In this document: positions 3,472-21,959 of the stretch, in pieces | How positions within the stretch are numbered: the first letter of the stretch is position 1 | How the letters are laid out: each line of letters begins with the position of its first letter | NCBI RefSeq assembly: GCF_020164455.1 | Contig: NZ_JAIQWW010000024.1 | Span: 1-64,000 of the forward strand | Length of the DNA: 64,000 nucleotides | Source of the DNA: Phyllobacterium chamaecytisi | GTDB lineage: Bacteria; Pseudomonadota; Alphaproteobacteria; Rhizobiales; Rhizobiaceae | Direction: 5' to 3' | The notes under the pieces: model-generated | What the model was told of the DNA's origin: nothing | The model's database searches: none | What the model saw: the letters and a program-made list of their open reading frames with translations, nothing else | Position numbers and translations under genes: made by a program

Positions 3472-4512
3472 TCAGTCTCTTGGTGAGACCTTCGAAAGCG
3501 GTCCACTGACAACGCACCGCAGGCCGGCAGGATCAAAAGTCACAATGGGCTTTTCTCCAAAGACGGCAGCCAGCGCCGAACGCACGTATCTGGTTCCGTA
3601 ACCTGCCCTCGTCGGAGGCGCGACAGCCGGCCCCCCGGTCTCGGCCCACTCAAGGGTCAACGCCGGTGTGTCGGTGGCAGAAATTTCCCAGACCACGCTG
3701 ACGCTTCCCTCCGGGGTTGAAAGCGCACCGTACTTGATGGCGTTTGTGACAAGTTCGTGCAGGCATAGCGCCAGGGTTGTCCCCGCCTCGCGGGTGAGCA
3801 GCAGATCAGGCCCTTCGACATAAATTCTGTTCCTCCCGTCGGCACGATAAGGCTCCAGAGTGAGGTTCACCATGCCTCTCAGTGCGACGGCGACGCCTCC
3901 TGCTTCGAATACGGCGGAGTGGACGTTGGCCAGTGCCCCCAGGCGGCCTTCGAAGTCAGCGGTAAGAGCATCGATCGTGTCGGCACCGCGACGGGTCATG
4001 CGAAAAATCGATGTCACGCTGGCCAGGATATTTTTGACGCGGTGGTTGAGTTCGAGACGAAGCTCCCTTTCCCGCTCGATGGAGTCTCTGACTTCCCGCT
4101 GGCGCAACCGGACAAGGAGCGCAGATTGCACGCCGCTCACAAGCTCCAGGGAAGCAACGGGTCTTTGAAAGAACAGCTGGCGTGAGCGTGGCCATCGCCT
4201 GTCCAATTCCGCCCGGATTCGCGATTGCTGTGCTGTTCGATCCAACAGCACGAAAATTGGCAAGTCCGACCAGTTTGGCTGAGTGGTCAAATGGTTTGCG
4301 ATGGCCTCGATCGTCGGAGGATTCAGGGACTCGTGGGTGGCAATGATTACGCCGGGCGATTGCGGAAGCTTCCGCACCAGATCCTCCGTATCGGCACAGG
4401 CCCTGACGACCATGCCATGCTCCACGAGCAACATCTCGATATAGGCTGCGTCTTTCCTGTAGGGTGCCAGGACAAGCACCCAGTCCAGTTCGCCGTGATT
4501 GCTGGCGTCCAT
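3472..4512 (-). CDS. HWE-family sensor histidine kinase with pseudo-receiver domain
   Basis: Cytoplasmic histidine kinase of 346 residues. Residues 8-125 resemble a receiver fold but lack the phospho-acceptor Asp (the strand reads GVIIATHES). The H-box LELNHRVKN places the phosphorylated His at 157. The N-box HELVTNAIKYGALS has Asn257, and the W-x-E signature LEWAETGGP (W289, E291) defines the HWE subfamily typical of alphaproteobacteria. GYGTRYV is the G-box. There are no membrane segments, so it senses a cytoplasmic cue. The start overlaps the stop of the KaiC-like gene (TAATG), implying translational coupling. It probably phosphorylates the stand-alone receiver encoded first in the same operon; that pairing is inference. 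Confidence 0.88.
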   Translation of the reverse strand: MDASNHGELDWVLVLAPYRKDAAYIEMLLVEHGMVVRACADTEDLVRKLPQSPGVIIATHESLNPPTIEAIANHLTTQPNWSDLPIFVLLDRTAQQSRIRAELDRRWPRSRQLFFQRPVASLELVSGVQSALLVRLRQREVRDSIERERELRLELNHRVKNILASVTSIFRMTRRGADTIDALTADFEGRLGALANVHSAVFEAGGVAVALRGMVNLTLEPYRADGRNRIYVEGPDLLLTREAGTTLALCLHELVTNAIKYGALSTPEGSVSVVWEISATDTPALTLEWAETGGPAVAPPTRAGYGTRYVRSALAAVFGEKPIVTFDPAGLRCVVSGPLSKVSPRD

Positions 4513-5954
4513 TACGCCTCTGGCAGGGGGTTGTACGCAACAACGGTAACGCCGGAGCTTTCGATCAAGAGCTCCCGGACGTCGAGGTCATGTGGACCGT
4601 GCCGCTTCTTGACGACCGTGATGCTGCGTCTGAGCTTTCCTTCATGTTCGGAGATCCTGAGAAGCAGGACAGTGTCTCCAAGGAAGCTGACATCGACGTC
4701 AATGCCAACATTTTGCCCGAGCAAACCGTGTTGCGCGACGATCAACATGGTCAGTACGCCCGAACGGGCGAGATATTTCAGCAAAGACTGGATATCGCGC
4801 ACGGCCTTCTCGCGGTGCGGCAGTGAATTCAGATATCCGGTGAAGCTGTCGATCACCACAACGCGCGACTTTTCCCGGGTGACCACCTCTTGCGCGATCT
4901 TGCCGAATTCGCCGGGCGATATCTCGTTGGGATTGAAATCCCGTATGATCAGCTGGCCGTCCTTGTGAAACTGGCGCAGGTCCATGCCAAGTCCCTCGGA
5001 ACGCCGGAAAAACGTTTCCAATCTTTCCTCAAACAGAAAGAGCGCAACGCTCTCGCCCCGTTTCAATGCAGCTGTCGCGTAGAGCGATGACATGGTGGAT
5101 TTGCCGGTCCCCGACTGGCCGATAACCAGCGTCGTCGTTCCCGACTCCTGTCCGCCGCCAAACATTTCATCGAGGGCTGTAACGCCCGACTTGATCAGCT
5201 GCGGTTTGACTGTTTCGGATGCCGCGCCGGGAATTATCCTTGGGTAGATGATAACCCCTTCTCCTTCCCGTATGGCCATATCATGATAGCCGTCGGCCAC
5301 AGGAACGCCGCGCATCTTGCTTACCTCGACCCGGCGACGGACCCCGCCATATTCCTCGAGCGATTTGTCGAAGCGGATGACACCATGGGCAATCCCCTCG
5401 ACCTCCTCGCCGCTGCGCTCAACTGAGCCGTTCGTCTGTGTATCCAGTAGCAAGGCCACCACCTGCCGCTGCGCCAGGAAAGACTTAAAACCCAACAGTT
5501 CGCGTCTAAAGCGCGGGGAATCTCCTGTGATGAGGCGGATTTCCAGAAGCGAGTCATAGACAAGCCTGTGGGGCTTGTGATCTTCAATTGCCTGCTCAAC
5601 GGCTTTCCGGGTTTCGTCGAGCCGGAGCTCCGTGGTTTGAAAGATCGTTTGATCCGAAGCGCCATTCACAGCATCGGACGCCGACAACTCCTCAACTCTG
5701 ATACCCTTGAGGCTCCAGCCGTGAGAAATGGCGATCGATTCAAGCTCTGCCGCGGTCTGGGAGAGACTGACGTAAAGGCAGCGTTCCCCGGCCTCGACGC
5801 CGGCGAGCAGAAACTGTAGCGCTGCTGTTGTCTTGCCCGATCCGGGAGCACCTTGCAGGATGTAAAAATTGGAAGAAGGCAAGCCGCCCCGGAGGATTTC
5901 ATCCAGCCCGGCAATGCCGGTCTTCACGACAGATTGTTTCTTATGCGTGACCAT
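4512..5954 (-). CDS. KaiC-like tandem RecA-fold ATPase
   Basis: Double-domain KaiC homologue of about 480 residues. Domain CI has Walker A GAPGSGKTT (about 35-43); domain CII has GQSGTGKST. CII keeps the catalytic Glu pair (LFLFEER), but CI reads YVSLSQT where cyanobacterial KaiC has FEET, so CI should be a weak ATPase. At the KaiC phosphorylation site the sequence VSFLGDT keeps the Ser equivalent to S431 but replaces T432 with Phe and T426 with Ile. I chose ATG 5954 (MVTHKK) because the family fold begins shortly after it; ATG 5969 and 6038 are alternatives without better ribosome sites. No kaiA or kaiB is nearby. Likely an energy- or redox-responsive signalling ATPase rather than a clock component. 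Confidence 0.85.
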   Translation of the reverse strand: MVTHKKQSVVKTGIAGLDEILRGGLPSSNFYILQGAPGSGKTTAALQFLLAGVEAGERCLYVSLSQTAAELESIAISHGWSLKGIRVEELSASDAVNGASDQTIFQTTELRLDETRKAVEQAIEDHKPHRLVYDSLLEIRLITGDSPRFRRELLGFKSFLAQRQVVALLLDTQTNGSVERSGEEVEGIAHGVIRFDKSLEEYGGVRRRVEVSKMRGVPVADGYHDMAIREGEGVIIYPRIIPGAASETVKPQLIKSGVTALDEMFGGGQESGTTTLVIGQSGTGKSTMSSLYATAALKRGESVALFLFEERLETFFRRSEGLGMDLRQFHKDGQLIIRDFNPNEISPGEFGKIAQEVVTREKSRVVVIDSFTGYLNSLPHREKAVRDIQSLLKYLARSGVLTMLIVAQHGLLGQNVGIDVDVSFLGDTVLLLRISEHEGKLRRSITVVKKRHGPHDLDVRELLIESSGVTVVAYNPLPEA

Positions 5955-6110
5955 GTCGATCGAATCCATTCCGTTGAAATCGAGTAGGGGAGACGCCAGA
6001 CGGCTGACTGCAAACGCTTCCCGCTTTATATTCCACATTGACCATCGTCAACATCGCGATCGACGGCATCCGCATTCATACGACCTCGAGCCGCTATCGA
6101 GCCACCTCCA

Positions 6111-6482
6111 TTAATTCACCATTCCCATCTCTCGTACGGCCTCTATGATGTGTTTGTGGTGGTAAGGCTTTCCAAAAAAGCGGCCCTCGACCGGAAGTGC
6201 GTCGTCGGACATGTACCTATGTCCCGATGTAACAATGATCTTTATCGGTGGCCACCTGTCCCGCACCGCGGCCGCCAGTTTCAATCCATCCATGCTTCCG
6301 GGCATGTCGATATCGGTGAACAGCACCCGGATATCAGCGCTTTCACTCAGGATAGCGATTGCCTCGTCGGCATCTCCCGCTTCCAACACGCTAAAGCCGG
6401 CGGCTTCCAAAGCGTGGGCGATGTCCATGCGGACGATGACCTCGTCTTCTACAACGAGGACTGTGATCGAGTTCTTCTTCAT
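6111..6482 (-). CDS. Single-domain response regulator (CheY-like)
   Basis: Stand-alone receiver of 123 residues with no output domain. The acidic pocket is VVEDE (residues 10-14), the phospho-acceptor is D57 in LFTDIDMPG, a Ser/Thr switch lies in IIVTSGH, and the conserved Lys is in FFGKPY. It is the first gene of a minus-strand unit: receiver, 156 bases, KaiC-like ATPase, then HWE kinase. Single-domain receivers of this kind commonly act as phosphate sinks or partner-binding switches; its partner here is presumably the HWE kinase. Confidence 0.88.
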   Translation of the reverse strand: MKKNSITVLVVEDEVIVRMDIAHALEAAGFSVLEAGDADEAIAILSESADIRVLFTDIDMPGSMDGLKLAAAVRDRWPPIKIIVTSGHRYMSDDALPVEGRFFGKPYHHKHIIEAVREMGMVN

Positions 6483-7021
6483 ACGAAGTCCCTTTCATAG
6501 CGCTGTCCGTCTCATCGTGGGCTGCTTTCCAACGCGTGCGCTCTCAAATCGATCCGAAGAAAATAAATAGTGGACCAAAGCACGGTAGCGGACGACCACG
6601 GCCCGCAAGCTTGGAATGGGCGCAAACGCTTGCGAAGAACGAATATTTTCACCTGTCCTGTCCTGCCCTGCTCGCCTGCAAATTCAGTGCACCGACCCTG
6701 CAAACGCCCCCTGAAAATCCTGGGACGACAAAGATGCAAAAGCGAAGCATCGGTTCGCCTTGAACGATGCGCTTCTTTGCGACCGTCGTGCGCGCGGGAA
6801 GGGCTTATGATGCTGACAGCGACACCGCGACCGGAGGGGGCACCGCATTGACATCTTGGTGTGTGGAGGGGTACACGTCTAGCGTCGATGTTTGCTAGTT
6901 TGACTTTTGTTATCGCGCGCTGGCAACGTGCCCTGGACGAACTTCCCCTTCAAAGATCGAGATCATCATCCGCCAAGCTCTCTGTCGGCGGGTCGTTGCA
7001 ATTGCTATGAAAGGGTTCGTT
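6483..7021. other. Intergenic region: divergent promoters and cspA leader
   Basis: About 540 bases without a credible gene, lying between the divergent receiver/KaiC operon and the cold-shock gene. It must hold both promoters and probably a long cspA 5' leader, which is usual for cold-shock mRNAs. I could not identify a convincing -35/-10 pair or an EcfG-type site. Confidence 0.4.
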
Positions 7022-7231
7022 ATGACCACTGGCACAGTTAAATGGTTCAATTCCACCAAAGGCTTCGGCTTTATCCAGCCTGACAACGGCGGCACCGATG
7101 CGTTCGTTCATATCTCTGCGGTCGAGCGCGCCGGTATGCGCGAAATTGTCGAGGGTCAGAAGATCGGCTACGAGCTGGAGCGCGACAGTAAGTCGGGTAA
7201 AATGTCGGCCTGTAATCTGCAGGCTATGTAA
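7022..7231 (+). CDS. cspA: Cold-shock domain protein CspA family
   Basis: A 69-residue nucleic-acid-binding OB-fold protein that melts RNA secondary structure. RNP1 is KGFGFIQP and RNP2 is DAFVHISAV, both intact; the opening GTVKWFNSTKGFG is diagnostic. ATG 7022 is chosen because AAAGGG lies 7-8 bases upstream and the family N-terminus starts there; an in-frame ATG at 7007 would add only five residues. A rho-independent terminator at 7295-7321 ends the unit. The long upstream gap suggests post-transcriptional control by a leader. Confidence 0.95.
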   Translation: MTTGTVKWFNSTKGFGFIQPDNGGTDAFVHISAVERAGMREIVEGQKIGYELERDSKSGKMSACNLQAM

Positions 7232-7294
7232 TCGGTAACCGCTTTGCCTTGGCCACGGCTATACTGGTACTGTCGAAGGCAAGTCAACCAAGTG

Positions 7295-7321
7295 GGTCAG
7301 GCATCTGCCTGGCCTTTTTTT
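7295..7321 (+). terminator. Rho-independent terminator of cspA
   Basis: Stem GGTCAGGC (7295-7302) and GCCTGGCC (7307-7314), with one G-U pair and a four-base loop, is followed by seven T residues. It lies 63 bases after the cspA stop. Confidence 0.9.
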
Positions 7322-7397
7322 ATGTTCACGAACTGTCGGAAGCCTCCGAGCCGGATAGCATTGCTCGCGGCCCGCCGGCGCATATTCGGAGATTTGA

Positions 7398-7673
7398 ATG
7401 ACAGAGCAGAGCAATGAGCTCCAGGCGATCAACACGGCCTGGCAGATTGCCATTCAGGAAATCCTACGGATGGTCGTGCGGGATATGTACAAAACGGGCG
7501 ATGAAACTGTGTTCAAGTCGCATATCAAGCGCATCGAGGAGGCAGCGGTCGACAGCATTTACTCGGGCCTCATGCTGCGAGGGACAAACGAATGGACAGA
7601 GGTGCTGGTCAAAGAAAAAGCGAGTAACTTCGTCACCACTCTGCTTACCTCCTTTACCTTCGATCGTGCATAG
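7398..7673 (+). CDS. Small hypothetical protein
   Basis: A 91-residue soluble, helix-rich protein of no recognised family. It has good coding character (amphipathic segments such as NTAWQIAIQEILRMVVRDM, and mixed charge) and a GGAG ribosome site 7 bases before the ATG. It lies after the cspA terminator, so it has its own promoter or depends on read-through. No motif suggests a function. Confidence 0.6.
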   Translation: MTEQSNELQAINTAWQIAIQEILRMVVRDMYKTGDETVFKSHIKRIEEAAVDSIYSGLMLRGTNEWTEVLVKEKASNFVTTLLTSFTFDRA

Positions 7674-8004
7674 CCTGCGGCTAACGTGTGTACCCGGCGT
7701 GCCGCCGCATACGAATGCAGGGACCATGAACCTTGATCGATACCGCTGTGTCTTTTCTCGGCGGCATGGATGGCGCGACCGTCGCTGCCGCAAAGCCATC
7801 GGCGCCTCTAGTGCCGGCTTTTCGACGCTATGAACGCACCCGAAATCCGACGAATTCCTGGCTCTGTCGTAGCGCCATAGGGAAGGCTCACTCCTAGACT
7901 AAACCGCTTTATCCGAGCGTCCAGCAAGTCAATCTCGATGTTTGTAACGGGCAGACATCGCGCCAAAAGCTGTGGCGCGATGTCATGGTACCGGGAACCA
8001 GAAT
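7674..8004. other. Intergenic region before groEL 3' end
   Basis: About 330 bases with no credible gene. The only structure seen is the hairpin at 7954-7984, which belongs to the groESL transcript coming from the other side. Confidence 0.4.
7954..7984 (-). terminator. Hairpin at the end of groEL
   Basis: Perfect 12-bp stem: GACATCGCGCCA (7954-7965) pairs with 7973-7984 around a 7-base loop, 20 bases past the groEL stop. No T-run follows on the minus strand, so it is either a processed 3' end or a factor-assisted terminator. Confidence 0.6.
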
Positions 8005-9994
<1,990 letters not shown>

Positions 9995-10047
9995 GAGGAA
10001 CTCTTTCTGCAGCCAGACAATGTGGCTCACATGCCTTCATACCCTCA

Positions 10048-10074
10048 TTGGCACTCGAATGATAGGAGTGCTAG
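10048..10074 (-). promoter_or_regulatory. CIRCE operator (HrcA site) of groESL
   Basis: TTGGCACTC (10048-10056), nine bases, then GAGTGCTAG (10066-10074). This matches the CIRCE consensus TTAGCACTC-N9-GAGTGCTAA with only outer-base differences and sits at the expected distance upstream of groES. Confidence 0.93.
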
Positions 10075-10318
10075 CTGGCAGCGTCCAAATCGGAACCTGC
10101 AAATACCCTCGGCGGTTTCTTTCGCCGACGCGGGCGGTAGTGGATCACTCGTTGCCCTCTGCGCAATCAGGGCCGCAAGATATCTGAGCAAGTCCGAGAC
10201 GGTTTCGCCAGCCTGTCAGGGTGCACCCGGCCAGTTGCAGTCAGTTATTACGGGCATTGATCGCGATGCGCTTGGTCTTCGCCTGTGCCAACGCGACGCG
10301 GCGGAAGATCGGGGACAT

Positions 10319-10420
10319 TGAGCTCCGGTCAGTTTTGCCGAATCTCTGGCTCATTGCATCGGGTCCAACCGGCATGACCAGGCGGCCATCAATGGCCAGG
10401 GGCTCCTTGATGCTCGGGTG
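10319..10420 (-). pseudogene. Possible remnant of protein-L-isoaspartate methyltransferase (pcm)
   Basis: The minus strand encodes HPSIKEPLAIDGRLVMPVGPD followed by AMSQRFGKTDRSS. The QLAxGGRLVxPVG...QRLxKxTR pattern is the C-terminal region of protein-L-isoaspartate O-methyltransferases, which are often linked to heat-shock genes. Nothing recognisable of the SAM-binding N-terminal domain remains. The match is short, so the call is tentative. Confidence 0.4.
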
Positions 10421-10596
10421 GCTCCGGCGCAGCTTCTGGCCCTCCCCGCGTGCCGGCGCCAGTGCGCAGGTCGATATCGTCGCTGTTTCCGAACAGATGT
10501 TTTCTGCTGCCCGCCACGACAAGAATGCGACAATATGCATAGACTGTTATGCATGATTAAGGATTGCCTCAAATTTGACCTAAGGTAGTCTGGCGT

Positions 10597-10704
10597 CGTT
10601 GGGTTCTTCTCCTCCCGGAAACCCAGCTCAAGTGTGCTGCACCTCCTCCCGCGGTACATTTACAATCAGGACCGCTGCACCTCCTCCCGCAGCGGTCCTT
10701 TTTT
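10597..10704 (+). ncRNA. Candidate sRNA with three anti-Shine-Dalgarno loops
   Basis: Three successive stem-loops each expose a TCCTCCC loop, complementary to ribosome-binding sites. SL1: TGGGTT (10600-10605) with AACCCA (10620-10625). SL2: GTGTGCTGC (10632-10640) with GCGGTACAT (10651-10659), using G-U pairs. SL3: a perfect 10-bp stem GGACCGCTGC (10669-10678) with 10689-10698, followed by six T, an intrinsic terminator. The 17-base unit GCTGCACCTCCTCCCGC occurs twice (10636-10652, 10674-10690). This architecture matches rhizobial sRNAs with CCUCCUCCC motifs (the 'cuckoo'/alpha-r14 type). A possible promoter is TTGCCT (10564-10569), 16 bases, TAGTCT (10586-10591). No reading frame explains the region. 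It probably represses translation in trans. Confidence 0.75.
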
Positions 10705-10784
10705 GTTCATGACGCTCCGTACCCGATCGCCGGAGAGTTGACATATTCATGCAGCCGCGCCGGCGGCCGTCGCTGTCAGCCTAG

Positions 10785-11175
10785 AACCTATCTTGCTCAT
10801 TGGAGCATCGGCAGCGGGAAATTAGCCCGCCAGAGCAGCGCGGGATGGGTGTCCGCGTGATCGATAGGCCCGGCCTTTTGCCTCGAAATCTCAAATATAT
10901 GCGTGCCTTTGCGCAGGTGTTTCCCGACGAGGAGATCGTGCAACAACTTGCTGCAAGGTTGCCTTGGGGCCAAAACGTCAAACGCATTGAAGCTTTGAAG
11001 AGTACTGAAGAGCAACTTTGGTATGTCCGTCATGCGGAGAAACATGGGTGGAGCCGCAACCTCCTCGCATATCAGGTCGAGAGCGGCCTTTATCGACGGC
11101 AAGGCAAAGTACTTACCACTTCGCACGGACCCTCCCTGCTCCACAGTCTGCCTTGGAGGAGCAAAGCTTTTTGCG
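10785..11175 (+). pseudogene. YhcG/DUF1016-family nuclease-like gene, truncated and frameshifted
   Basis: Three frames must be joined to read the family. HWSIGSGKLARQSSAGW (about 10798-10850) is followed by GVRVIDRPG, LLPRNLKYMRAFAQVFPDEE, LPWGQNV and HGWSRNLLAYQVESGLYRRQGK (about 10845-11110), then FARTLPAPQSALEEQ in a third frame (about 11127-11172). These are the N-terminal PDDEXK-associated segments of DUF1016 proteins. The first part and the whole C-terminal domain are missing, and an IS30 remnant follows directly. Confidence 0.8.
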
Positions 11176-11199
11176 AAGACTAGCAAATTCGTGTTCGTG

Positions 11200-11490
11200 T
11201 CCTGGCGCGATTTGGCGGCCGTGATGGGGACGAAGGCATGGTTCTGCGATCCGCAAGCCCGCTGGCAGAAAGGCTCTGTCGAGAACATGAACAAAAGAGT
11301 GCGCCGCTACCTGCCGCGTGACACGGATCTCTCCTGTCGCTGCCGCAGCAAACCGTGCGTTCAATCTGCGAGCGTCTCAACACGCCCCCGCGAAAGTGTC
11401 TCGACGACAGGACCCGACCGAAGTGTTCAGAGAACAGCTTGTTGAAATCGTATCGCTGCCGGACTGGCCTGCCCCAGACCGCCGTTGCAT
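11200..11490 (+). pseudogene. IS30-family transposase C-terminal remnant
   Basis: Reads GTKAWFCDPQARWQKGSVENMNKRVRRYLPRDTDL, the hallmark DDE-domain end of IS30 transposases with its catalytic Glu in VEN. It then changes frame to ICERLNTPPRKCLDDRT and again to PTEVFREQLVEIVSLPDW. Two frameshifts and loss of the N-terminal two thirds make it non-functional. No terminal inverted repeat was recognised. It abuts the YhcG remnant, suggesting an old insertion followed by decay. Confidence 0.85.
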
Positions 11491-11637
11491 TTGAATTAGA
11501 ACCCACACCCGCTTGCATTGTGCCGTTATCTCAAATCGGGATAGTTGCCGAGGTTAAATCGGCGTCGATGAACAGTGCAGACAAGATTTTTTCTACAATG
11601 CCCAGAATTGCACCAAGGTTCAGGTCATCAACCTGGT

Positions 11638-12348
11638 TCAACGTTTGACCGCATAGAGAGCCCGCGAGCGCTCGATATGAACAACCATAGCCCGTTCCGC
11701 CGCGTCGGCATCACCACCTTTGATGCAATTCAGGATTGCCTCATGCTCCTGAAGTGTCACGTTTTCCTGACCGGTCCAGATCAACATCTCGATGTGATAC
11801 TCGAACAGCCATTTTAGCAGCGACTCGCTCAATGCCTCGAGGATGGGATTACCGGAAATCGAAGCGATTTTACGGTGGAAAGCAATATCATCCGCGATGA
11901 AGCGCTCAGAATTGCCGTAGTGGCGTTTCTGGCTGGCCAAGATTGACTCGAGCGCGTCGATGTCACCGGGCGTCGCCCGCTCGGCCGCTATGCGGACCAA
12001 ACCGCGCTCATAGAACAGCCGGGTGCCTTTGAGATGTTCAAGCGATTCCGGGGAAGTCAGCATCAACATGCGTGCCACCACATCGATCTGCTTGAACATC
12101 TTCCGCGGCGTTAAAGCGCTAACCCTTGCCCGCTCGCCGTGGGAAATGGATATCAACCCCATAGTGTGCAGCGATTGCATCGCCTCGCGGATCGCGGGCC
12201 TGCCCACGCCAAATCGCTCCATGAGATCCCGCTCGGAGGGCATCTCATCTCCGGGACCGATTTCGCCGCTGGCGATAAGGTCGTGCAACCGATCGAAAAC
12301 CTCATCGGACAGCTTTCTTCGGACGATTCGATCATCGAGATTTTTCAT
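11638..12348 (-). CDS. GntR/FCD-family regulator of the apiose locus
   Basis: A 236-residue FadR-subfamily repressor. The N-terminal winged helix-turn-helix spans about residues 12-80 (MPSERDLMERFGVGRPAIREAMQSL is the recognition region). A helical FCD ligand domain follows, with the metal-site pattern D-x3-H (IADDIAFHRKI) and a later EHEAIL/HIERS pair. It is the last gene of the long minus-strand operon that begins with apnO. That position suggests it autoregulates and responds to D-apiose, D-apionate or a downstream intermediate; the palindrome at 20632-20652 is the likely operator. Confidence 0.85.
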   Translation of the reverse strand: MKNLDDRIVRRKLSDEVFDRLHDLIASGEIGPGDEMPSERDLMERFGVGRPAIREAMQSLHTMGLISISHGERARVSALTPRKMFKQIDVVARMLMLTSPESLEHLKGTRLFYERGLVRIAAERATPGDIDALESILASQKRHYGNSERFIADDIAFHRKIASISGNPILEALSESLLKWLFEYHIEMLIWTGQENVTLQEHEAILNCIKGGDADAAERAMVVHIERSRALYAVKR

Positions 12349-12411
12349 AGGCCAAAAGGACTCCCGAAACCTTCATTTCAAATCAGTGTGGTGCGGACGA
12401 AGTCAGCACTG

Positions 12412-14331
12412 TCAAACGTTATAACGCAGGAGTGCTACCGCATAGGGCTTCAATAAAAGCTCGATCTGATCTTCGCCAAAAGGCAATCTCCTCGTCGCCG
12501 CTCCTGGGAAACTATCCTCGTCCAATATGGCGACCGACAGCCTGGACGGGCGGGCGGACAGATCAAGGGTGGCTGTTTGTACTTCCCCCGTGATATTGGA
12601 GATCAAAACGCTTACATGTCCTGCATCGTCCTTAAAGGCTGCGAGCAGTATTGAGGCCTCTTCCTCCGAGCTGCTCTCGAGCACTGATTGCCCGGCGAGG
12701 CAGCATAGCCACTTGGCGACAGTGCACGCCGGATAAGGGGTATCGGCGTCGCCGACAAGGCCGGCGGCGCCGAACAGGCCAGCGGGAACGAAGGAAGCAA
12801 TGTTATGTTCGGCAACGCGCGCGGCGTACCCGGCCATGAATGAAGCAGCAAATACGCCGCCCTGTCGCGGGTCGGCTTTCGCCATCGCCTTGCGTTCGCC
12901 CAAATCGTTCTCGAAGGCGCGCGAACCATAGGGGTTCTGGCGCATCGGAATGAAGGATGGCCCCAGGCGATACGTCTGGACGTCGCCCATGATCTTCCTT
13001 GCAGAACGAAAGATGAAGGGCAGCGCCTCAAGCGTCTGCATCACACTTTCGTCGTCGGCTGCATGAACGATTGGATTGGTGCCATGCGTGACGAAATCCA
13101 GTTTTTCAACAGGCGGCCGCTTGCGATTGAGTTCGGTAAAGTAGCTTACCATTCCACCGCCAATGGCAAGACCCGGAAAGTTCTCGTGCGCCGCGTCGTA
13201 AAGAGCGGACAATGGCGGGCATTCAGGCCAGCGGCTTCCTGGCGGCGTAGACTGCCTGTCCACCAACGGGCAAACGGTCAGCCCGGCAAGCCGAAGCGCG
13301 GATCGCTCGATCTGCGCTGCCAGCGCCCGAAACTCGCCGTCGAGGTCGGTGCCAGCAAGGGCGACATACTCCAGCAGGATCGGGCAGTTTGTACGATTGC
13401 GGAGTTGGGCATAGCCGGTCAATTCAGCTTCGCCGTGGCCGGCTGATGGGTCGAGATGACAAAGGAGAAAGCCGGGACCAATCTCTTTGACTGCCGACGC
13501 ACCGTCGAGTGTCTGCTGCAACGTGTCGGGCATGACGAGCAGTCCCGTTTCCGCCAGCCTATGGCCCGAAGGCTTCCCGGAAACCGTCACGCGGACGGTG
13601 TTTCCGTTCCTCCTGCGCGTCGCCGCCGATGGTGCTACCCGCAGCGACAGCTCAACCTCCTGCATGTTCGCGGTGCCGGCGGGCATGATGTAGGGCCATG
13701 GCAAGGCGAGCGGGCGCATATAAGTCTTATAGGAGGCATCCGACCAGTTGCGCTGATCCTCCATCTCGAACGCATCGCCAAGCAGGCGGCAGGTCGCTTC
13801 TATCCCCTCAGCCGGATTATGGCTCAGGGAACGGATCGATTTGAAGGGCTGCCAGGGCGCGATCAGATCCGGGAATATTGCCTCTTCTGTCGCCCCGTCG
13901 CAGTGTTCGACAGTGACGGGCTTCCCGGCGACCCCGACGATTGGATGCAGTACGCAGAACCCGCACCGATTGGTCTCGAAGTCCCGGTCCGGCGTTGCCG
14001 TGACGGAGAATTTCAGCGTTCCGTCGGCGTCGCCGCCGATTATCGCCGTATAGCGCAATCGACCGCCGCAGCTGGCGAAATAGCGCACTTCAAAACGTTT
14101 CGGCTGCATATCGACAACGAGATCGCTGATAGCCGGATCGAACGTGCCCCAGTCGCGATCCCGCACGACATAGGCGATGGCGCGCAGTATGTCGTGCCCC
14201 TTGAAGCGGATCGCGCGCAGGTTCCCCTGTACCAACTCCACCTCCAGATCCCCCGCCCTCAACAGTTGCGCGTCGGCCGGGGGAATGTCCGTTCCAAAGA
14301 GCCTGAGCGAACGAGGTGACGGAGCCGTCAT
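12412..14331 (-). CDS. apnL: Probable D-apionolactonase (ApnL)
   Basis: A 639-residue cytoplasmic protein with no signal peptide and no classic glycosidase motif that I can name. Length and context (between an apiose-dehydrogenase-like gene and a GntR regulator, beside apnO, oiaK and oiaX homologues) match ApnL, reported to hydrolyse D-apionolactone to D-apionate. The N-terminal half is beta-rich and the middle has barrel-like segments (PGLAIGGGMVSYFTELNRKRP, FVTHGTNPIVHAADD). Its ATG overlaps the apsD stop by four bases (ATGA), so the two are translationally coupled. The assignment rests on context and size more than on motifs. Confidence 0.75.
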   Translation of the reverse strand: MTAPSPRSLRLFGTDIPPADAQLLRAGDLEVELVQGNLRAIRFKGHDILRAIAYVVRDRDWGTFDPAISDLVVDMQPKRFEVRYFASCGGRLRYTAIIGGDADGTLKFSVTATPDRDFETNRCGFCVLHPIVGVAGKPVTVEHCDGATEEAIFPDLIAPWQPFKSIRSLSHNPAEGIEATCRLLGDAFEMEDQRNWSDASYKTYMRPLALPWPYIMPAGTANMQEVELSLRVAPSAATRRRNGNTVRVTVSGKPSGHRLAETGLLVMPDTLQQTLDGASAVKEIGPGFLLCHLDPSAGHGEAELTGYAQLRNRTNCPILLEYVALAGTDLDGEFRALAAQIERSALRLAGLTVCPLVDRQSTPPGSRWPECPPLSALYDAAHENFPGLAIGGGMVSYFTELNRKRPPVEKLDFVTHGTNPIVHAADDESVMQTLEALPFIFRSARKIMGDVQTYRLGPSFIPMRQNPYGSRAFENDLGERKAMAKADPRQGGVFAASFMAGYAARVAEHNIASFVPAGLFGAAGLVGDADTPYPACTVAKWLCCLAGQSVLESSSEEEASILLAAFKDDAGHVSVLISNITGEVQTATLDLSARPSRLSVAILDEDSFPGAATRRLPFGEDQIELLLKPYAVALLRYNV

Positions 14332-15356
14332 GTCAATGTCGCGACATCGACTGGCGCAAGGTTCCCCGCCGCCGATTGATAGGCGGCGGCCACGAGCGTC
14401 ATGGTTTTAAGATTATCGTCTCCTGAGGTTTCCGGGACGGTCCCGCTGGCAAGGCAATCCACCCAGTGTTTCTGTATGGCGTAGACACTTTCCTGGATAT
14501 TGTGCCAGGGCCGGCATGCCCAGTGGTGAAGGACCGGGGCGACCGTCTGCCTCTCGGTCACGCCATTGCTGTGCACGATCAATTCGTAGTTGGCATTGAG
14601 CCGGATCGAGCCCCGACTGCCATCGATTTCCAGCAGTGTCTGCGGGAAAAGCTCTTCTGCCAATGCTGTCGCGTAACTGCAATCACAGATACTGTTCACG
14701 CCGCTTTCGTGGAGCATGAGCACGGTCGCAACGTCCTCGCCCCTGATCTTGGGATTGACCCGATTGATGACCGCAGACAAGCGGCTTACATCGCCAAAAA
14801 GGAAGCGGGCAATGTCGAGGATGTGGATGCCGAGGTCCTCGAGGATGAACCGCTGCGATGTCGCAAGATAGGGTTGGCCCGAGAAGACGTCATAGGCCGA
14901 TCGAAACGACACTCTTGCCCAAAAGACGGTTCCGATCCGGCCGCTGTCCAGGACAGCGCGGACGGCGCGTATCGGCGCCTGCCAACGGAAATTCTCATGC
15001 ACCATCAATGGCACACCTGCCCGGGCACAGGCATCGACCATCGCGCGGGCGTCGCTGAGACTTTCGGCGAAGGGCTTTTGGCAAATGACAGGCAGACCTG
15101 CGCCAGCGGCCAACTCGACCAGCGGGCGGTGCGTCGCGACAGTTGTTGCGATGTCGACGAAGTCGAGGGACTCGCGTGCCATCATTTCTGCCGCATCGGT
15201 ATAAAGATTGCTGATCCCGAACTTCTGGCCGGCATCCCGCAATCTCTCCTCGTCACGATCGCACAGGGCCGTAATCGCGCCATCACCTATTTCTTGCCAG
15301 GCATGGAGGTGGTTATGGGCAAAGAAGCCACAACCGATCAGTCCGCCTCTCACCAT
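14328..15356 (-). CDS. apsD: Probable D-apiose dehydrogenase (ApsD), Gfo/Idh/MocA family
   Basis: A 342-residue NAD(P)-dependent sugar dehydrogenase expected to oxidise D-apiose to D-apionolactone. The N-terminal Rossmann motif is GLIGCGFFAHNHLHAW, and the family Lys motif appears as CQKPFAESLSDA (usual EKP). A C-terminal alpha/beta substrate domain follows. The stop overlaps the apnL start by four bases, and the start lies just after the permease stop with GGAGG upstream. The family assignment is firm; the apiose specificity comes from the surrounding ApnO, OiaK, OiaX and transporter genes. Confidence 0.83.
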   Translation of the reverse strand: MVRGGLIGCGFFAHNHLHAWQEIGDGAITALCDRDEERLRDAGQKFGISNLYTDAAEMMARESLDFVDIATTVATHRPLVELAAGAGLPVICQKPFAESLSDARAMVDACARAGVPLMVHENFRWQAPIRAVRAVLDSGRIGTVFWARVSFRSAYDVFSGQPYLATSQRFILEDLGIHILDIARFLFGDVSRLSAVINRVNPKIRGEDVATVLMLHESGVNSICDCSYATALAEELFPQTLLEIDGSRGSIRLNANYELIVHSNGVTERQTVAPVLHHWACRPWHNIQESVYAIQKHWVDCLASGTVPETSGDDNLKTMTLVAAAYQSAAGNLAPVDVATLT

Positions 15357-15358
15357 TG

Positions 15359-16426
15359 TCAGCCTCCGATCGCTGCCTGCTGTTGCAGCGCAAGTCTTTG
15401 TTGAAGCCTTCTCTGAAACTGGTCAACGACAACGGCCGCGATAATCACGACACCCTTGATGACAATCTGCCAGAACGAGCTGACGCCCATCATCACCAGG
15501 CCATCGGAAAGGATACCGATCACAAACGCGCCGACTATGGTGCCGCCGATCTTGCCGCGGCCGCCCGACATCGATGTGCCGCCAAGGACGGCAGCAGCGA
15601 TCGCATTGAGTTCAAAACTTTCGCCCGTGGCGGGATGGGACGCCACCAATTCGGATGAAATGATCAGGCCAACGATCGCGGCACAGAAGCCAGAGAACAT
15701 ATAGACGAACATCTTCACGCGATTGACACGCACGCCGGACAGGGCCGCCGCCCGTTCATTGCCACCGACAGCATAGATAAAACGGCCAAGTGGCGTGCGT
15801 CCGGCGATATAGGCAGCACCACAGCCGATGATGACCAGCAGCCAGATCGATACGGGGATGCCCAAAATCACGCCCGACCCGAGAAACGGAAACCCGGTCG
15901 TGCCGAGCTCAGCGTTACCGACGAGGTTCGGGAACGTACGTCCGTCCGAAGAAAGGAGGGCAAAGCCCCGGGCCACGTAGAGGGTGCCGAGCGTCGCAAT
16001 GAATGGCGCTACATTCAATCGCGTTATCAGAAATCCGTTGAGGGCCCCGATCAGGATGCCGACGGCCAGGGTAATGAGAACGACCTCGACCACATTGAAA
16101 TAGATCGTGTAGCCTATTGGCCCGAGATTGAGCCCGTTCATGATCAATCCGCCTGCAACCATACCCGACAGGCCGACGATCGATCCGACCGAAAGATCGA
16201 TGCCTCCGGTGATGATGACGAAGGTCATGCCTACGGCAAGGAACGCGTTGAGCGCCACATGTTTCGACATGATCACCATGTTCGCCGTGCTGAGGAAGTT
16301 CGGCGCGGCAAAGGAGAAGAAGATCAGGACCAGGAACAGGGCGATGAAGGTCCGCATGTGCAGGAGCGCCATCACTGCCGAACTGGAGGTCAATCCGGGC
16401 GCCTGCTTGGTAATCGTAGCGCTCAT
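15359..16426 (-). CDS. Sugar ABC transporter permease (RbsC-like)
   Basis: A 355-residue inner-membrane subunit of a CUT2-type (ribose/xylose family) ABC importer. About ten hydrophobic helices are visible, starting with TFIALFLVLIFFSFAAPNF. The conserved FVIITGGIDLSVGSIVGLSG and AVLGGTSMSGGRGKIGG (cytoplasmic EAA-like contact region) are typical of RbsC. The start overlaps the ATPase stop (ATGA). With the ATPase and binding protein it should import D-apiose. Confidence 0.92.
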   Translation of the reverse strand: MSATITKQAPGLTSSSAVMALLHMRTFIALFLVLIFFSFAAPNFLSTANMVIMSKHVALNAFLAVGMTFVIITGGIDLSVGSIVGLSGMVAGGLIMNGLNLGPIGYTIYFNVVEVVLITLAVGILIGALNGFLITRLNVAPFIATLGTLYVARGFALLSSDGRTFPNLVGNAELGTTGFPFLGSGVILGIPVSIWLLVIIGCGAAYIAGRTPLGRFIYAVGGNERAAALSGVRVNRVKMFVYMFSGFCAAIVGLIISSELVASHPATGESFELNAIAAAVLGGTSMSGGRGKIGGTIVGAFVIGILSDGLVMMGVSSFWQIVIKGVVIIAAVVVDQFQRRLQQRLALQQQAAIGG

Positions 16427-17970
16427 GATCGAGCCTCCATGGTTTGGCCGGTAATGTCGTGGCCGACGCTCGATGCGGCGACCACGGCTTGTTCCGTTGC
16501 CCCAACGCGTTGAAAATCGCCGGTGATGCGGCCTTTGGACATGACGATGATGCGGTCTGACAGCGCCATGACCTCTTCGAGGTCGGACGTCACAAAGAGG
16601 ATGCCAAGGCCGTCCGCCGCAAGCCTGCGCATGGTGCGGAACACTTCCGCCTTGGCACCGATATCGATGCCACGGCTCGGTTCGTCCATAAGCAGGACTT
16701 TCGGATCCGTCATGAGCGCCTTGCCGATGACCACCTTCTGCTGGTTTCCGCCTGAAAGCGATGCGACCTCATTATCCGGATTGGCGATCTTGATCGCGAG
16801 TTTGCGAACGTATTGCGCGACTGTCGCGCGCTCCTTCTTGCCGTCGATCTGCACGCCGCGCACATAGTTCCAGAGGCTCGCCAGAGTCATGTTGTCGCTG
16901 ATCGACATGATCTGGATCAGCCCTTCGGCCTTCCGGTCCTCCGGGATCAGGGCAAGCCCACCATTGATACGCTCAAGGACATCCGCCTTGGGCAATGGCC
17001 TTCCGCCAACGAGGATCGTCCCCCCGGCATGCTTGTGCCGCCCCATGATACAGTCGAACAACTCGGTTCGGCCCGCCCCCATCAGGCCGTAGATGCCGAT
17101 GATTTCCCCTGCCCGCAACGACAGTGAGACATGGTCAACCATATAACCGCCGCCTTGCCTCGGCAGAGTAATATCCTCGATTTGCAAAATCTCGTTGCCG
17201 TATCTGTGCTCTGCGGTCTTGGCATAGTCCTTTGACGATGCGCCGATCATGCTTCGCACGATCCAAGGCACATCGATGTCCTTCATCGAACTCGAGCCGG
17301 TTATGCTGCCGTCTCTGAGGACAGTGATGAAATCGCCGATGCGCACGAGTTCCTCGAGACGATGGGAAATATAGACGATTGCCACACCCTGCGCCTTCAG
17401 CTCGGCAATCACGCGGAACAGAATTTCGACCTCGGTGGCGCTCAATGCCGAGGTCGGTTCGTCCATGATCAGAATCCTTGCGTCCTGTGACAGGGCCTTG
17501 GCAATCTCGACAATCTGCTGCTGGCCAATGCGCAATTCTCCGACCGGCCGGTCGACCGCAATATCATGTTCAAGACGCCGCATGAGTGCCCGGGACTTCT
17601 CTTCCTGCGTCGTGCGGTCAATATCGATGCCGAAACGGCATTGTTCGCGCGTAATGAAGATGTTCTCGGCGACAGTCATGTTTGGGAACAGGTTGAGTTC
17701 CTGAAACACAATACCGATTCCATTGCGGATAGCATCCTGCGTACTGGTCATGCGAATGGGCTCGCCATTCAGCAGTATGGTGCCCTCGGTTGGCTGTTCG
17801 ACGCCGCTGATAATCTTCATAAGGGTCGATTTGCCGGCGCCATTCTCCCCGACAAGCACATTAACGGCGCCTTTGCGGACATCGAAGTCCACGGATTTCA
17901 AGGCGATCGTCCCCGGATAGACCTTGGTAGCACCGCGCACGCTGAGGATGACTTCCTGATCGGCGTTCAT
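16423..17970 (-). CDS. Sugar ABC transporter ATPase (RbsA-like, two nucleotide-binding domains)
   Basis: A 515-residue fused double ATPase of CUT2 importers. The first domain has Walker A GENGAGKST, signature LRIGQQQIVEIAKAL and Walker B ILIMDEPTSAL. The second has the degenerate P-loop GLMGAGRTEL, signature LSGGNQQKVVIGKAL and VLLMDEPSRGIDIG, the pattern usual for RbsA. Both ends overlap neighbouring genes by four bases (permease downstream, DUF2291 lipoprotein upstream). Confidence 0.94.
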   Translation of the reverse strand: MNADQEVILSVRGATKVYPGTIALKSVDFDVRKGAVNVLVGENGAGKSTLMKIISGVEQPTEGTILLNGEPIRMTSTQDAIRNGIGIVFQELNLFPNMTVAENIFITREQCRFGIDIDRTTQEEKSRALMRRLEHDIAVDRPVGELRIGQQQIVEIAKALSQDARILIMDEPTSALSATEVEILFRVIAELKAQGVAIVYISHRLEELVRIGDFITVLRDGSITGSSSMKDIDVPWIVRSMIGASSKDYAKTAEHRYGNEILQIEDITLPRQGGGYMVDHVSLSLRAGEIIGIYGLMGAGRTELFDCIMGRHKHAGGTILVGGRPLPKADVLERINGGLALIPEDRKAEGLIQIMSISDNMTLASLWNYVRGVQIDGKKERATVAQYVRKLAIKIANPDNEVASLSGGNQQKVVIGKALMTDPKVLLMDEPSRGIDIGAKAEVFRTMRRLAADGLGILFVTSDLEEVMALSDRIIVMSKGRITGDFQRVGATEQAVVAASSVGHDITGQTMEARS

Positions 17971-18653
17971 GGCTGGCCGCTTGCGATGGTGACGTCGGAC
18001 GGCGCAATCAGGATTTCAGCTCCCGCACTCGGGGCCACGAAAGCCCCCGTTACACTCACATGTTTTCCAACAAGGTTGTCCCGGTCGAGTTTGGAGAGTT
18101 TGGCCTCGTAGACATGCGCATTCAGCGCACGGCCAACATTGGCATATTCAATCTGGTTCTTGAAGGCGCTGAAAGGGATGAAAGGCAGGACGTCACGCAG
18201 CGCCGTGCCACGGATGACCGGGCCAAGCTGCACCTTGGCATCGCTCTTGCCGTCGCCATTCGTATCCACCGCGATATAGGCGGCCCTGGACTTGGTGTTC
18301 GAGTCGACCACCTGGCCGTCAAGCCTGACTATGAAACTATAGGGGTTCTGGGCAGGATTCTCGCTATATCCATACTGCGGCCCGGCACTCCTGGCGTCCT
18401 TTGCCAATGCCGATTGGACCTCGGCAAATCGATTGGCCTTGTCGCGCATGAAAGGCTCGACCTTCGGCGTCCATATATCGGCAACCACCTTCTCGGCATT
18501 GAAGTCCGAGGAATCAAAGAATATTTCGAGCTGGCCGGAGGCCTTGGCGCTGGCGGCTTCATTCTTCTTGATCTTGCAGCCCGAAACGCCGAGCACCACG
18601 ACGGCGACCGAGACGGCAACAAGGACGTTTACTTTGATTGTCATCCATTTCAC
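17967..18653 (-). CDS. DUF2291-family periplasmic lipoprotein
   Basis: A 228-residue predicted lipoprotein. A hydrophobic leader ends in the lipobox VSGC (Cys about residue 26). The mature domain contains FDSSDFNAEKVVADIWTPKV and TALRDVLPFIPFSAFKNQIEYANVGRAL, which I associate with DUF2291 proteins that travel with RbsABC-like sugar importers. Its molecular role is not established; placement between the binding-protein and ATPase genes suggests it assists the transporter at the membrane surface. The start carries the operon on after the hairpin at 18685-18716. Confidence 0.8.
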   Translation of the reverse strand: MKWMTIKVNVLVAVSVAVVVLGVSGCKIKKNEAASAKASGQLEIFFDSSDFNAEKVVADIWTPKVEPFMRDKANRFAEVQSALAKDARSAGPQYGYSENPAQNPYSFIVRLDGQVVDSNTKSRAAYIAVDTNGDGKSDAKVQLGPVIRGTALRDVLPFIPFSAFKNQIEYANVGRALNAHVYEAKLSKLDRDNLVGKHVSVTGAFVAPSAGAEILIAPSDVTIASGQP

Positions 18654-18684
18654 TCGCGAGCATAAGGATCAGGGCATCGAAGAA

Positions 18685-18716
18685 GGCATGGCGGATCTTG
18701 CGTGATCCGCCATGCC
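18685..18716 (-). repeat. Perfect 13-bp hairpin after the sugar-binding protein gene
   Basis: GGCATGGCGGATC (18685-18697) pairs perfectly with 18704-18716 around a 6-base loop, immediately 3' of the binding-protein gene and 5' of the lipoprotein gene. No T-run follows, so the operon continues. Such hairpins commonly protect the upstream binding-protein mRNA and raise its level over the membrane genes. Confidence 0.75.
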
Positions 18717-18724
18717 TCTTGTGC

Positions 18725-19690
<966 letters not shown>

Positions 19691-19714
19691 TTATCGATCG
19701 CTTTTCAATGGTGT

Positions 19715-19736
19715 ATCCCTGTCCTCCCACAGGGAT
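19715..19736 (-). repeat. Perfect 8-bp hairpin between apnO and the sugar-binding protein gene
   Basis: ATCCCTGT (19715-19722) pairs with ACAGGGAT (19729-19736) around CCTCCC. It lies in the 84-base gap upstream of the binding-protein gene; no T-run follows. It is likely an mRNA processing or stability element. Confidence 0.55.
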
Positions 19737-19750
19737 GGATCACCGTCGGA

Positions 19751-20575
19751 TCAGGTGATCCGCCGGATGCTCTCCGTAATCTCGTCGTGATTGAAGACGT
19801 TCAGCCAGTCCGGCTGCATTATCCGCGGCTTGCCGTTTTCGATTGCCTTGTTGCAGGCATCCGAGAATACGCCGTCGACCTCCCCCATGATGACGGCACC
19901 CAGAATGTTCATGTGCCCGAGCAGGAAGTCGCGGGCCGCGACCGGGTCAACGCCCCGGCGAACGACCTCGTCCAGGGCATCCTTCATGGCCGCCAGCAGT
20001 GACGCACACACAGTCTCCGAAAGGCCGGGTTCGAGCAGCGCCATCTGCTCGACAGTAACCCTGTGCGAGCGCAGGATGGGCTTGTAAATGAGTTTCGCCA
20101 CCTCTTCGCCCTGGGCGAAGTGTTCCTCGGGCCCTTGCATCAGCGCGCTGACGATTGACTGCGCCGCAGCGACGCCGCCGAAGAAATCGCGTTTTGCGGA
20201 CATTTCTGTCTCGTCATTGAAGATCGGCGGATGACAAGGGTGCGTGACGAAATAGGTGATGTCCTTGCGTTCCGGCAGGTGGCCGGCAAATGGTGCGGCC
20301 GCATCGAGGATGACAACCATCGTGCCGGGCTGGAGCTTGTCGACGATCTGATGAGACACTGCCCGGATCGCTGTATCGGGAACCGCCATAACAACGATGC
20401 GCGCCCCTTCGAGGCCTTCCTCCGGAGTGACGCAGTCGACACCCAGCACATCCTTCAGGCGGGCTTTTGCCGCCTCATTGACCTCTACATGAGCCACTTG
20501 GAATCGCGACCCCGCAAGGTTCTTCGCGAGCCGCGTCCCCATTTTTCCGCCAGCACCGAGCAGCGCGATTTTCAT
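19751..20575 (-). CDS. apnO: Probable D-apionate oxidoisomerase (ApnO)
   Basis: A 274-residue dehydrogenase of the phosphogluconate-dehydrogenase-like group. The N-terminal NAD motif is KIALLGAGGKMGTRLAKNL, followed by VVMAVPDTAIRAVSHQIVDKL. A helical C-terminal domain carries HPCHPPIF, seen in this branch. ApnO is reported to oxidise and rearrange D-apionate to 3-oxo-isoapionate. ATG 20575 (MKIALLG) is chosen because the Rossmann fold begins there and GGGAGGGC lies upstream; the frame extends to 20608 without homology. It is the first gene of the minus-strand operon and divergent from oiaX. Confidence 0.84.
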   Translation of the reverse strand: MKIALLGAGGKMGTRLAKNLAGSRFQVAHVEVNEAAKARLKDVLGVDCVTPEEGLEGARIVVMAVPDTAIRAVSHQIVDKLQPGTMVVILDAAAPFAGHLPERKDITYFVTHPCHPPIFNDETEMSAKRDFFGGVAAAQSIVSALMQGPEEHFAQGEEVAKLIYKPILRSHRVTVEQMALLEPGLSETVCASLLAAMKDALDEVVRRGVDPVAARDFLLGHMNILGAVIMGEVDGVFSDACNKAIENGKPRIMQPDWLNVFNHDEITESIRRIT

Positions 20576-20606
20576 GAAGAATGCCCTCCCTTGAATTCTT
20601 CGCCGC

Positions 20607-20652
20607 AATGTGTCGGCAAGATATCATGTTGTCAACTGGTATAATGAGTTGA
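20607..20652. promoter_or_regulatory. Divergent promoter/operator of the apiose locus
   Basis: An inverted repeat TCAACT (20632-20637), nine bases, AGTTGA (20647-20652) is centred between apnO and oiaX. Within its spacer lies a perfect extended -10, TG-G-TATAAT (TATAAT at 20640-20645), for oiaX. On the minus strand its left arm overlaps a perfect -35, TTGACA (20635-20630), with a weak CACATT -10 17 bases on (20612-20607) for apnO. A regulator bound here, presumably the GntR protein of 11638-12348, would block both promoters at once. Confidence 0.7.
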
Positions 20653-20702
20653 TCAGTTAATAATGCGCCTGTATGTATGCTGGCAATCAACGGGAGGTGA
20701 AC

Positions 20703-21959
20703 GTGAACCGAATTTACGCTGATTACGATCTGGAGACGCCCGGAAACCTTGCCGATACGGCGGCCATCATCGCCGGGGAACAATCCTCAGGCACGTTCAT
20801 GCAGCTCGAAGGCGAGACCGACGAGCTGAAAGAGGCCTATGGGGCGCGCATCGAGTCGATCGTCGAGACCGGTGCGGCCAGCAAGCCCTCCCTGCCATGC
20901 AGGGTAGCCGGCAGGAAATTTACGCGCGGGCGAATTCGCCTTTCCTGGTCACTGGCGAACATGGGACCGTCGCTTCCCAATGTGCTGGCAACAGTTGCAG
21001 GCAACCTTTTCGAATTGCGCGAGGTCTCTGCGCTTCGTCTGCTTGACGTCGAGCTTCCGGCGGAGTTTGCGGCCGCCTATCCCGGTCCGCGGGCAGGCAT
21101 AGGCGGAACGCGCAAGTTGGCCGGTGTACCTGTCGGTCCATTGATTGGTACGATCATCAAGCCGAGCGTCGGACTTGATCCTCTACAGACTGCCAGCCTC
21201 GTCTCGCGACTGGCGGAAGGCGGAATTGACTTCCTGAAGGATGATGAGTTGCAGGCCAATGGCCCGCACTGCCCGTTTGCTGAACGTGTCAAGGCCGTAA
21301 TGAAGGTGCTCCGCGACTTTGCTGACAGAACCGGCAAAAAGCCGATGTATGCTTTCAACATCACCGGCGGGATGGATGAGATGAAGCGTAACGCCGACCT
21401 CGTACGCGATGCGGGTGGAACGTGTGTCATGGTCGGGATCCACAGCGTCGGGCTTCCCGCTGTCACAGCGCTGCGACAGCATACGGATTTACCGATACAT
21501 GGCCATCGGAACGGCTGGGGCCTGTTCTCACGCTCGCCCGATATCGGGATCAGTTTCATCGCGTGGCAGAAATTCTGGCGGATTGCCGGGGTTGATCATC
21601 TTCATGTCAACGGGCTGCGCAACAAGTTCAGCGAGGATGGCACGTCGTCGATCGCGTCGGCAAGCCAGTGCCTCACCCCCCTGTTCGACGGTGACAGGGA
21701 TTTCAGGGTGATGCCGGTATTTTCTTCGGGGCAGTCGGCAGAACAGGTGGAAGACACCTACAAGGCGCTCGGCTCGACTGATCTCATTTATTGCGCTGGC
21801 GGCGGCATAATGGGGCATCCGCATGGTCCGGCGGGCGGGATAAGGAGTTTGCGCGAAGCCTGGCAGGCCGCCGTGGAGGGCATCAGCCTTGAAACCTACG
21901 CAGTCACGCACCCCGACCTTCGTGCGGCAGTTGAAACCTTCCGGTCGAGGTTGTCATGA
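20703..21959 (+). CDS. oiaX: RuBisCO-like protein, probable 3-oxo-isoapionate-4-phosphate transcarboxylase/hydrolase (OiaX)
   Basis: A 418-residue RuBisCO-like protein (form IV), not a CO2-fixing enzyme. GTIIKPS gives the active-site Lys K153, and LKDDE gives K179, the lysine carbamylated in RuBisCO, with metal ligands D181 and E182. HGHRNGWG supplies the catalytic His region and FSSGQ replaces the classic SGG phosphate loop. The loop-6 GKLEG of true RuBisCO is absent. In the D-apionate pathway this family is reported to cleave 3-oxo-isoapionate 4-phosphate to 3-phosphoglycerate and glycolate. The start is GTG 20703, with GGGAGG (20692-20697) upstream. The stop overlaps the kinase start (ATGA). 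Confidence 0.87.
   Translation: MNRIYADYDLETPGNLADTAAIIAGEQSSGTFMQLEGETDELKEAYGARIESIVETGAASKPSLPCRVAGRKFTRGRIRLSWSLANMGPSLPNVLATVAGNLFELREVSALRLLDVELPAEFAAAYPGPRAGIGGTRKLAGVPVGPLIGTIIKPSVGLDPLQTASLVSRLAEGGIDFLKDDELQANGPHCPFAERVKAVMKVLRDFADRTGKKPMYAFNITGGMDEMKRNADLVRDAGGTCVMVGIHSVGLPAVTALRQHTDLPIHGHRNGWGLFSRSPDIGISFIAWQKFWRIAGVDHLHVNGLRNKFSEDGTSSIASASQCLTPLFDGDRDFRVMPVFSSGQSAEQVEDTYKALGSTDLIYCAGGGIMGHPHGPAGGIRSLREAWQAAVEGISLETYAVTHPDLRAAVETFRSRLS

Follow-up and report, generated by a model that had tools for sequence, protein, structure and literature searches.

We take the αr14 family of small RNAs to be that of NfeR1/Smr14C2 of Sinorhizobium meliloti, also called 'cuckoo' or CCUCCUCCC RNAs. 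In the available excerpts of the published accounts, αr14 RNAs consist of three hairpins with variable stems, each with an unpaired CCUCCUCCC anti-Shine-Dalgarno (aSD) motif (PMC10746234, PMC7143759, PMC3927594). The three motifs of NfeR1 are described there as acting redundantly on translation initiation regions (PMC10746234, PMC7143759), and NfeR1 itself as activated by LsrB and repressed by NtrC (PMC10746234, PMC7143759, PMC3927594), with a TGCA-N6-GCAT box upstream (PMC10746234). According to an excerpt of PMC7143759, S. meliloti carries six αr14 copies, only one of which was reliably visible by Northern blot in the conditions tested, and the family also occurs in Phyllobacteriaceae. The same excerpt describes AbcR (αr15), which likewise has CU-rich aSD motifs in unpaired regions; AbcR has two such motifs (PMC7143759), and the copy studied here has three. 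Our literature search for a Phyllobacterium sRNA with an anti-Shine-Dalgarno motif found no paper.

An αr14 gene beside groESL and its relatives in Phyllobacterium

We searched the window, that is, the whole 64,000-nucleotide stretch of the Phyllobacterium chamaecytisi contig analysed here, with the Rfam covariance models. The results showed that an interval beside groESL matched RF02344 (ar14) with 74.6 bits against a gathering score of 58.8, the alignment running end to end (model positions 1-123 of 123) with an E-value of 1.4e-11 for the 64-kb window. The preliminary description had named the αr14 family and its Rfam model, and this assignment was correct. Within the window ar14 alone passed its gathering score, every other Rfam family remaining below its own. 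The match to isrD was among the latter, as was that to CcsR1 (RF02791), the conserved CCUCCUCCC motif stress-induced RNA, with 34.8 bits over hairpins 2-3 only against a gathering score of 65.3. CcsR1 resembles the groESL-side copy in its CCUCCUCCC loops, but its model has two hairpins, and the groESL-side copy has no DUF1127-like open reading frame (ORF) upstream (pattern scan, 400 bases). A new sRNA class is ruled out because the Rfam ar14 model matches. The αr14 copy is real but ordinary, one more copy of an already described, curated family; its features are collected in Table 1.

Table 1. Features of the groESL-side αr14 copy, in window coordinates
Feature	Position	Strand	Basis
αr14 sRNA gene	10594..10704	+	RF02344, 74.6 bits, full-length model
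Upstream box TGCATAGACTGTTATGCA	10536..10553	+	conserved in 22-copy alignment
-35-like TTGCCT	10564..10569	+	aligns with TTGCC of many relatives
-10-like TAGTCT	10586..10591	+	first T, A and last T invariant in 22 aligned copies
Hairpin 1, TCTCCTCCC	10598..10627	+	predicted fold; TCCTCCC 10610-10616, partly paired
Hairpin 2, loop ACCTCCTCCC at 10641-10650	10630..10661	+	predicted fold
Hairpin 3 and intrinsic terminator, loop ACCTCCTCCC at 10679-10688	10668..10704	+	predicted fold, covariance-model alignment

The genome (6.36 Mb, 93 contigs) contains six αr14 matches, all above the cut-off. Counting matches at E 0.001 or better, we found the family in all 20 genus genomes searched, own genome included, with at least 4-7 copies each, and in 0 of 14 control genomes. 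The genus total was at least 102 matches, at least 95 of them above the gathering score; the counts are minimum values because in many genomes 104 first-look candidates were scored. Multiple copies per genome and a conserved box, divergent here, upstream of a candidate promoter are features shared with NfeR1/Smr14C2, as are three hairpins with an aSD motif in each and a terminator formed by hairpin 3.

Lack of the three loops in relatives had been named beforehand as a finding that would refute the proposal. Three TCCTCCC were present in 96 of the 102 matches read (20 genomes), two in 3, one in 2 and none in 1, and the full CCTCCTCCC occurred three times in 27 of them, twice in 49, once in 18 and not at all in 8. 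The three loops are thus conserved, but they do not distinguish this locus as had been proposed, since three aSD loops are the published norm for αr14 in the excerpts of PMC10746234 and PMC3927594. The 17-base unit GCTGCACCTCCTCCCGC, reported as duplicated, was indeed located at 10636 and 10674, its only two occurrences on the + strand of the window. It is also found in relatives of the same subclass, indicating that the duplication is not peculiar to the groESL-side locus.

Predicted fold and paired changes

We folded 114 nt and obtained three hairpins at -49.3 kcal/mol (z -8.26), a stability that none of 200 shuffles equalled. TCCTCCC starts at 10610, 10644 and 10682. Of the three loops, only the second and third contain the full CCTCCTCCC, and the CCUCCUCCC 9-mer of these two hairpins is unpaired; hairpin 1 has UCUCCUCCC, one base short of the 9-mer, and its loop reads TCTCCTCCC, with three bases paired in the predicted fold. 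The mean unpaired probability of TCCTCCC was 0.67 in loop 1 and 1.0 in loops 2 and 3, and for loop 1 of paralog L002 it was 0.88. The claim that each of the three stems presents TCCTCCC in its loop was confirmed, with the qualification that loops 2 and 3 are open and loop 1 is partly paired. In this, and in lacking the first C of CCUCCUCCC, loop 1 of the groESL-side copy differs from NfeR1.

The last stem had been described as an intrinsic terminator, and its features bear this out: 11 uninterrupted pairs (10668-10678 with 10689-10699) enclose a 10-base loop, and six consecutive T follow at 10699-10704, of which the first is paired. A simple terminator scan, which permits loops of 3-8 bases only, reported nothing at hairpin 3.

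To compare the stems, we aligned 22 copies of the subclass, 21 collected by their stem-1 pattern and L153 added by hand. The RNAalifold consensus showed three hairpins with 24 pairs, and at 10 of the 24 at least one sequence was changed on both sides; in hairpin 2 these counts are affected by L150, L151, L153 and L156, which appear by eye to be misaligned. The covariation term was small (-1.73 of -20.89). These results bear on whether the element could be a chance pyrimidine-rich repeat. TCCTCCC alone is only mildly above its chance frequency, with 14 occurrences on both strands of the window against 8.81 expected and 6 of 100 shuffles reaching 14; the word itself is thus not rare, and the signal consists of three occurrences in three consecutive hairpins. 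A covariance match with an E-value of 1.4e-11 in 64 kb, conserved copies among relatives and paired changes in the stems argue against chance, whose probability we consider negligible.

Genomic neighbourhood, conserved unit and upstream region

The genes groES (Pfam Cpn10) and groEL (Cpn60) lie on the strand opposite to the αr14 RNA, the start of the groES reading frame preceding it by about 560 bases. The preliminary description had pointed out this neighbour; the comparison lent it no weight. The three best groES relatives come from Phyllobacterium. Among the best 80 of 520 groES loci found, several of which stop at contig ends, three TCCTCCC within 110 bases occurred at one, L036, and Rfam models run on 14 of the 80 gave an ar14 match in L036 only. 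L036 and the αr14 copy L149 represent the same very close relative, not two. Since groES and αr14 adjoin in only this one of the 80 loci, the neighbourhood is probably incidental, and we rejected a link with groESL.

Window 10800-11445, directly downstream of the sRNA, holds a fragment that matches DUF1016_N over profile positions 63-137 of 137 and, after it, an ORF that by eye looks like an IS30-type transposase remnant and has no Pfam match. The protein encoded at window 4512-6482 has two stretches of KaiC-type ATPase, and a response regulator lies beside it. The groESL region at 7002-10016 is 78-79% identical to groEL/groES/cold-shock regions in S. meliloti plasmid records 1.3-1.6 Mb long, and for 11638-23284 a Phyllobacterium plasmid record of 1.6 Mb shows 77.8% identity; given these likenesses, the contig may be part of an accessory replicon.

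We then compared window 8000-13000 by BLASTN with the 101 other copies and their flanks of about 1.5 or 3 kb, and 20 of them matched. L149 aligned over the whole 5 kb with 98.4% identity. The other matched copies aligned over about 10524-10707 or over the RNA alone, with the farthest ends at 10518 and 10730, indicating that what is conserved as a unit comprises the upstream box, the promoter and the RNA with its terminator. Over comparable spans, identity was 79.9% for the own paralog L002 and up to 83.5% for copies of other genomes. As L002 is no closer than the copies of other genomes, the groESL-side copy is not a very recent within-genome duplicate; its stem 1 differs from that of L002.

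The upstream box was exactly TGCATAGCTATTATGCA in 10 of the 22 aligned copies. The form TGCATAGACTGTTATGCA is shared with L149, and the remaining 20 copies lack its extra base. The three bases between the invariant -10 positions deviate from the usual TATCTT/TATTTT, and a consensus scan found no E. coli type promoter upstream of the αr14 copy, the aligned positions being divergent. The usual -10/upstream-box form was found by a loose pattern in 17 of 102 copies. In the groESL-side copy the box has the form TGCA-N10-TGCA, as opposed to the TGCA-N6-GCAT given for NfeR1 in the excerpt of PMC10746234. In 10 copies the latter form precedes the match by 72-73 bases, and 12 of the 102 have it anywhere within 250 bases; the 10 include the own paralog L003 (72 bases), which makes L003 a likelier NfeR1 counterpart than the groESL-side copy. 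By analogy with LsrB at NfeR1, the upstream box is possibly a LysR-type activator site.

Activity and proposed function of the groESL-side copy

With its atypical -10 and the extra base in its upstream box, the αr14 copy may be expressed weakly or not at all. That it is a surplus paralog, silent or decaying and no longer transcribed or useful, would be compatible with family membership; multiple copies per genome may be redundant, and the excerpt of PMC7143759 offers the precedent of undetected copies in S. meliloti. Against this, the RNA body is intact: it keeps all three motifs, its terminator stem is unbroken, and it is identical to that of L149. Region 10031-11637 has 46 differences from L149, and the 111-nt RNA has none (3.18 expected, P 0.035). 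There is one difference in 10524-10707 (5.27 expected, P 0.024) and none in 10536-10704 (P 0.006), a span trimmed after inspection of the data. An unchanged gap of at least 200 bases anywhere in the region has a P of 0.09, so that the test of selection is weak, and the low divergence of the RNA unit at most suggests selection. On balance, we consider the copy probably active and regard a silent copy as rather unlikely.

The element could also belong to a neighbouring gene, as its 3' UTR or terminator, and not be an independent sRNA, an origin to which the family lends some support, as a DUF1127-like ORF ends within 400 bases upstream in 38 of 102 copies. However, the groESL-side copy is outside those 38, Pfam gave no match for the + strand ORF at 10221-10556, and similarity to other loci begins only at about 10524, which together make this origin very improbable here. 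The 38 copies, identified with a custom-made pattern, include L001 (1-1500 side) and L005, and a DUF1127-like ORF upstream of αr14 copies recalls the CcaF1-CcsR arrangement of Rhodobacter. The own copy L006 comes after an ORF that looks phasin-like by eye.

We are highly confident that the locus is a member of the αr14 family and acts by the family's mode, that is, repression through aSD pairing. For the groESL-side copy itself, we infer transcription, activator, targets and repression from NfeR1. A sigma-70-type promoter of its own would give a short transcript that begins near 10594-10597 and ends at the terminator, and a LysR-type activator bound to the upstream box would perhaps assist. 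By pairing with mRNAs at their Shine-Dalgarno region, the CCUCCUCCC loops would then prevent translation. Judged from NfeR1, translational repression by such pairing is the most likely function, and repression of many mRNAs is plausible.

We scanned the whole genome for GGGAGGAGG-N4-10-ATG and found 9 sites, against 1 for the reversed pattern; the scan is crude, covering only full complementarity and ATG, and the starts are predicted. The frame after the site had at most 75 aa in 3 of the 9, and five of the other six were scanned against Pfam, L185 (113 aa) being left out. The frames were ketopantoate hydroxymethyltransferase, ATP-grasp/CoA-ligase, beta-lactamase-superfamily and glyoxalase-superfamily, and the fifth had no Pfam match. 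No ABC transporter was among these five frames, and the bias predicted for NfeR1 was not reproduced.

These findings show that raw sequence is enough to recognise a curated RNA family; they involve no new principle. With the locus comes a further paralog whose promoter is divergent, which may help in asking why these bacteria keep 4-7 similar anti-Shine-Dalgarno RNAs. We think it doubtful that the groESL-side copy has been re-wired by its longer box, changed -10 and partly closed loop 1 so that its signal differs from that of its five siblings; if it had been, it would represent subfunctionalised anti-Shine-Dalgarno RNAs within one cell.
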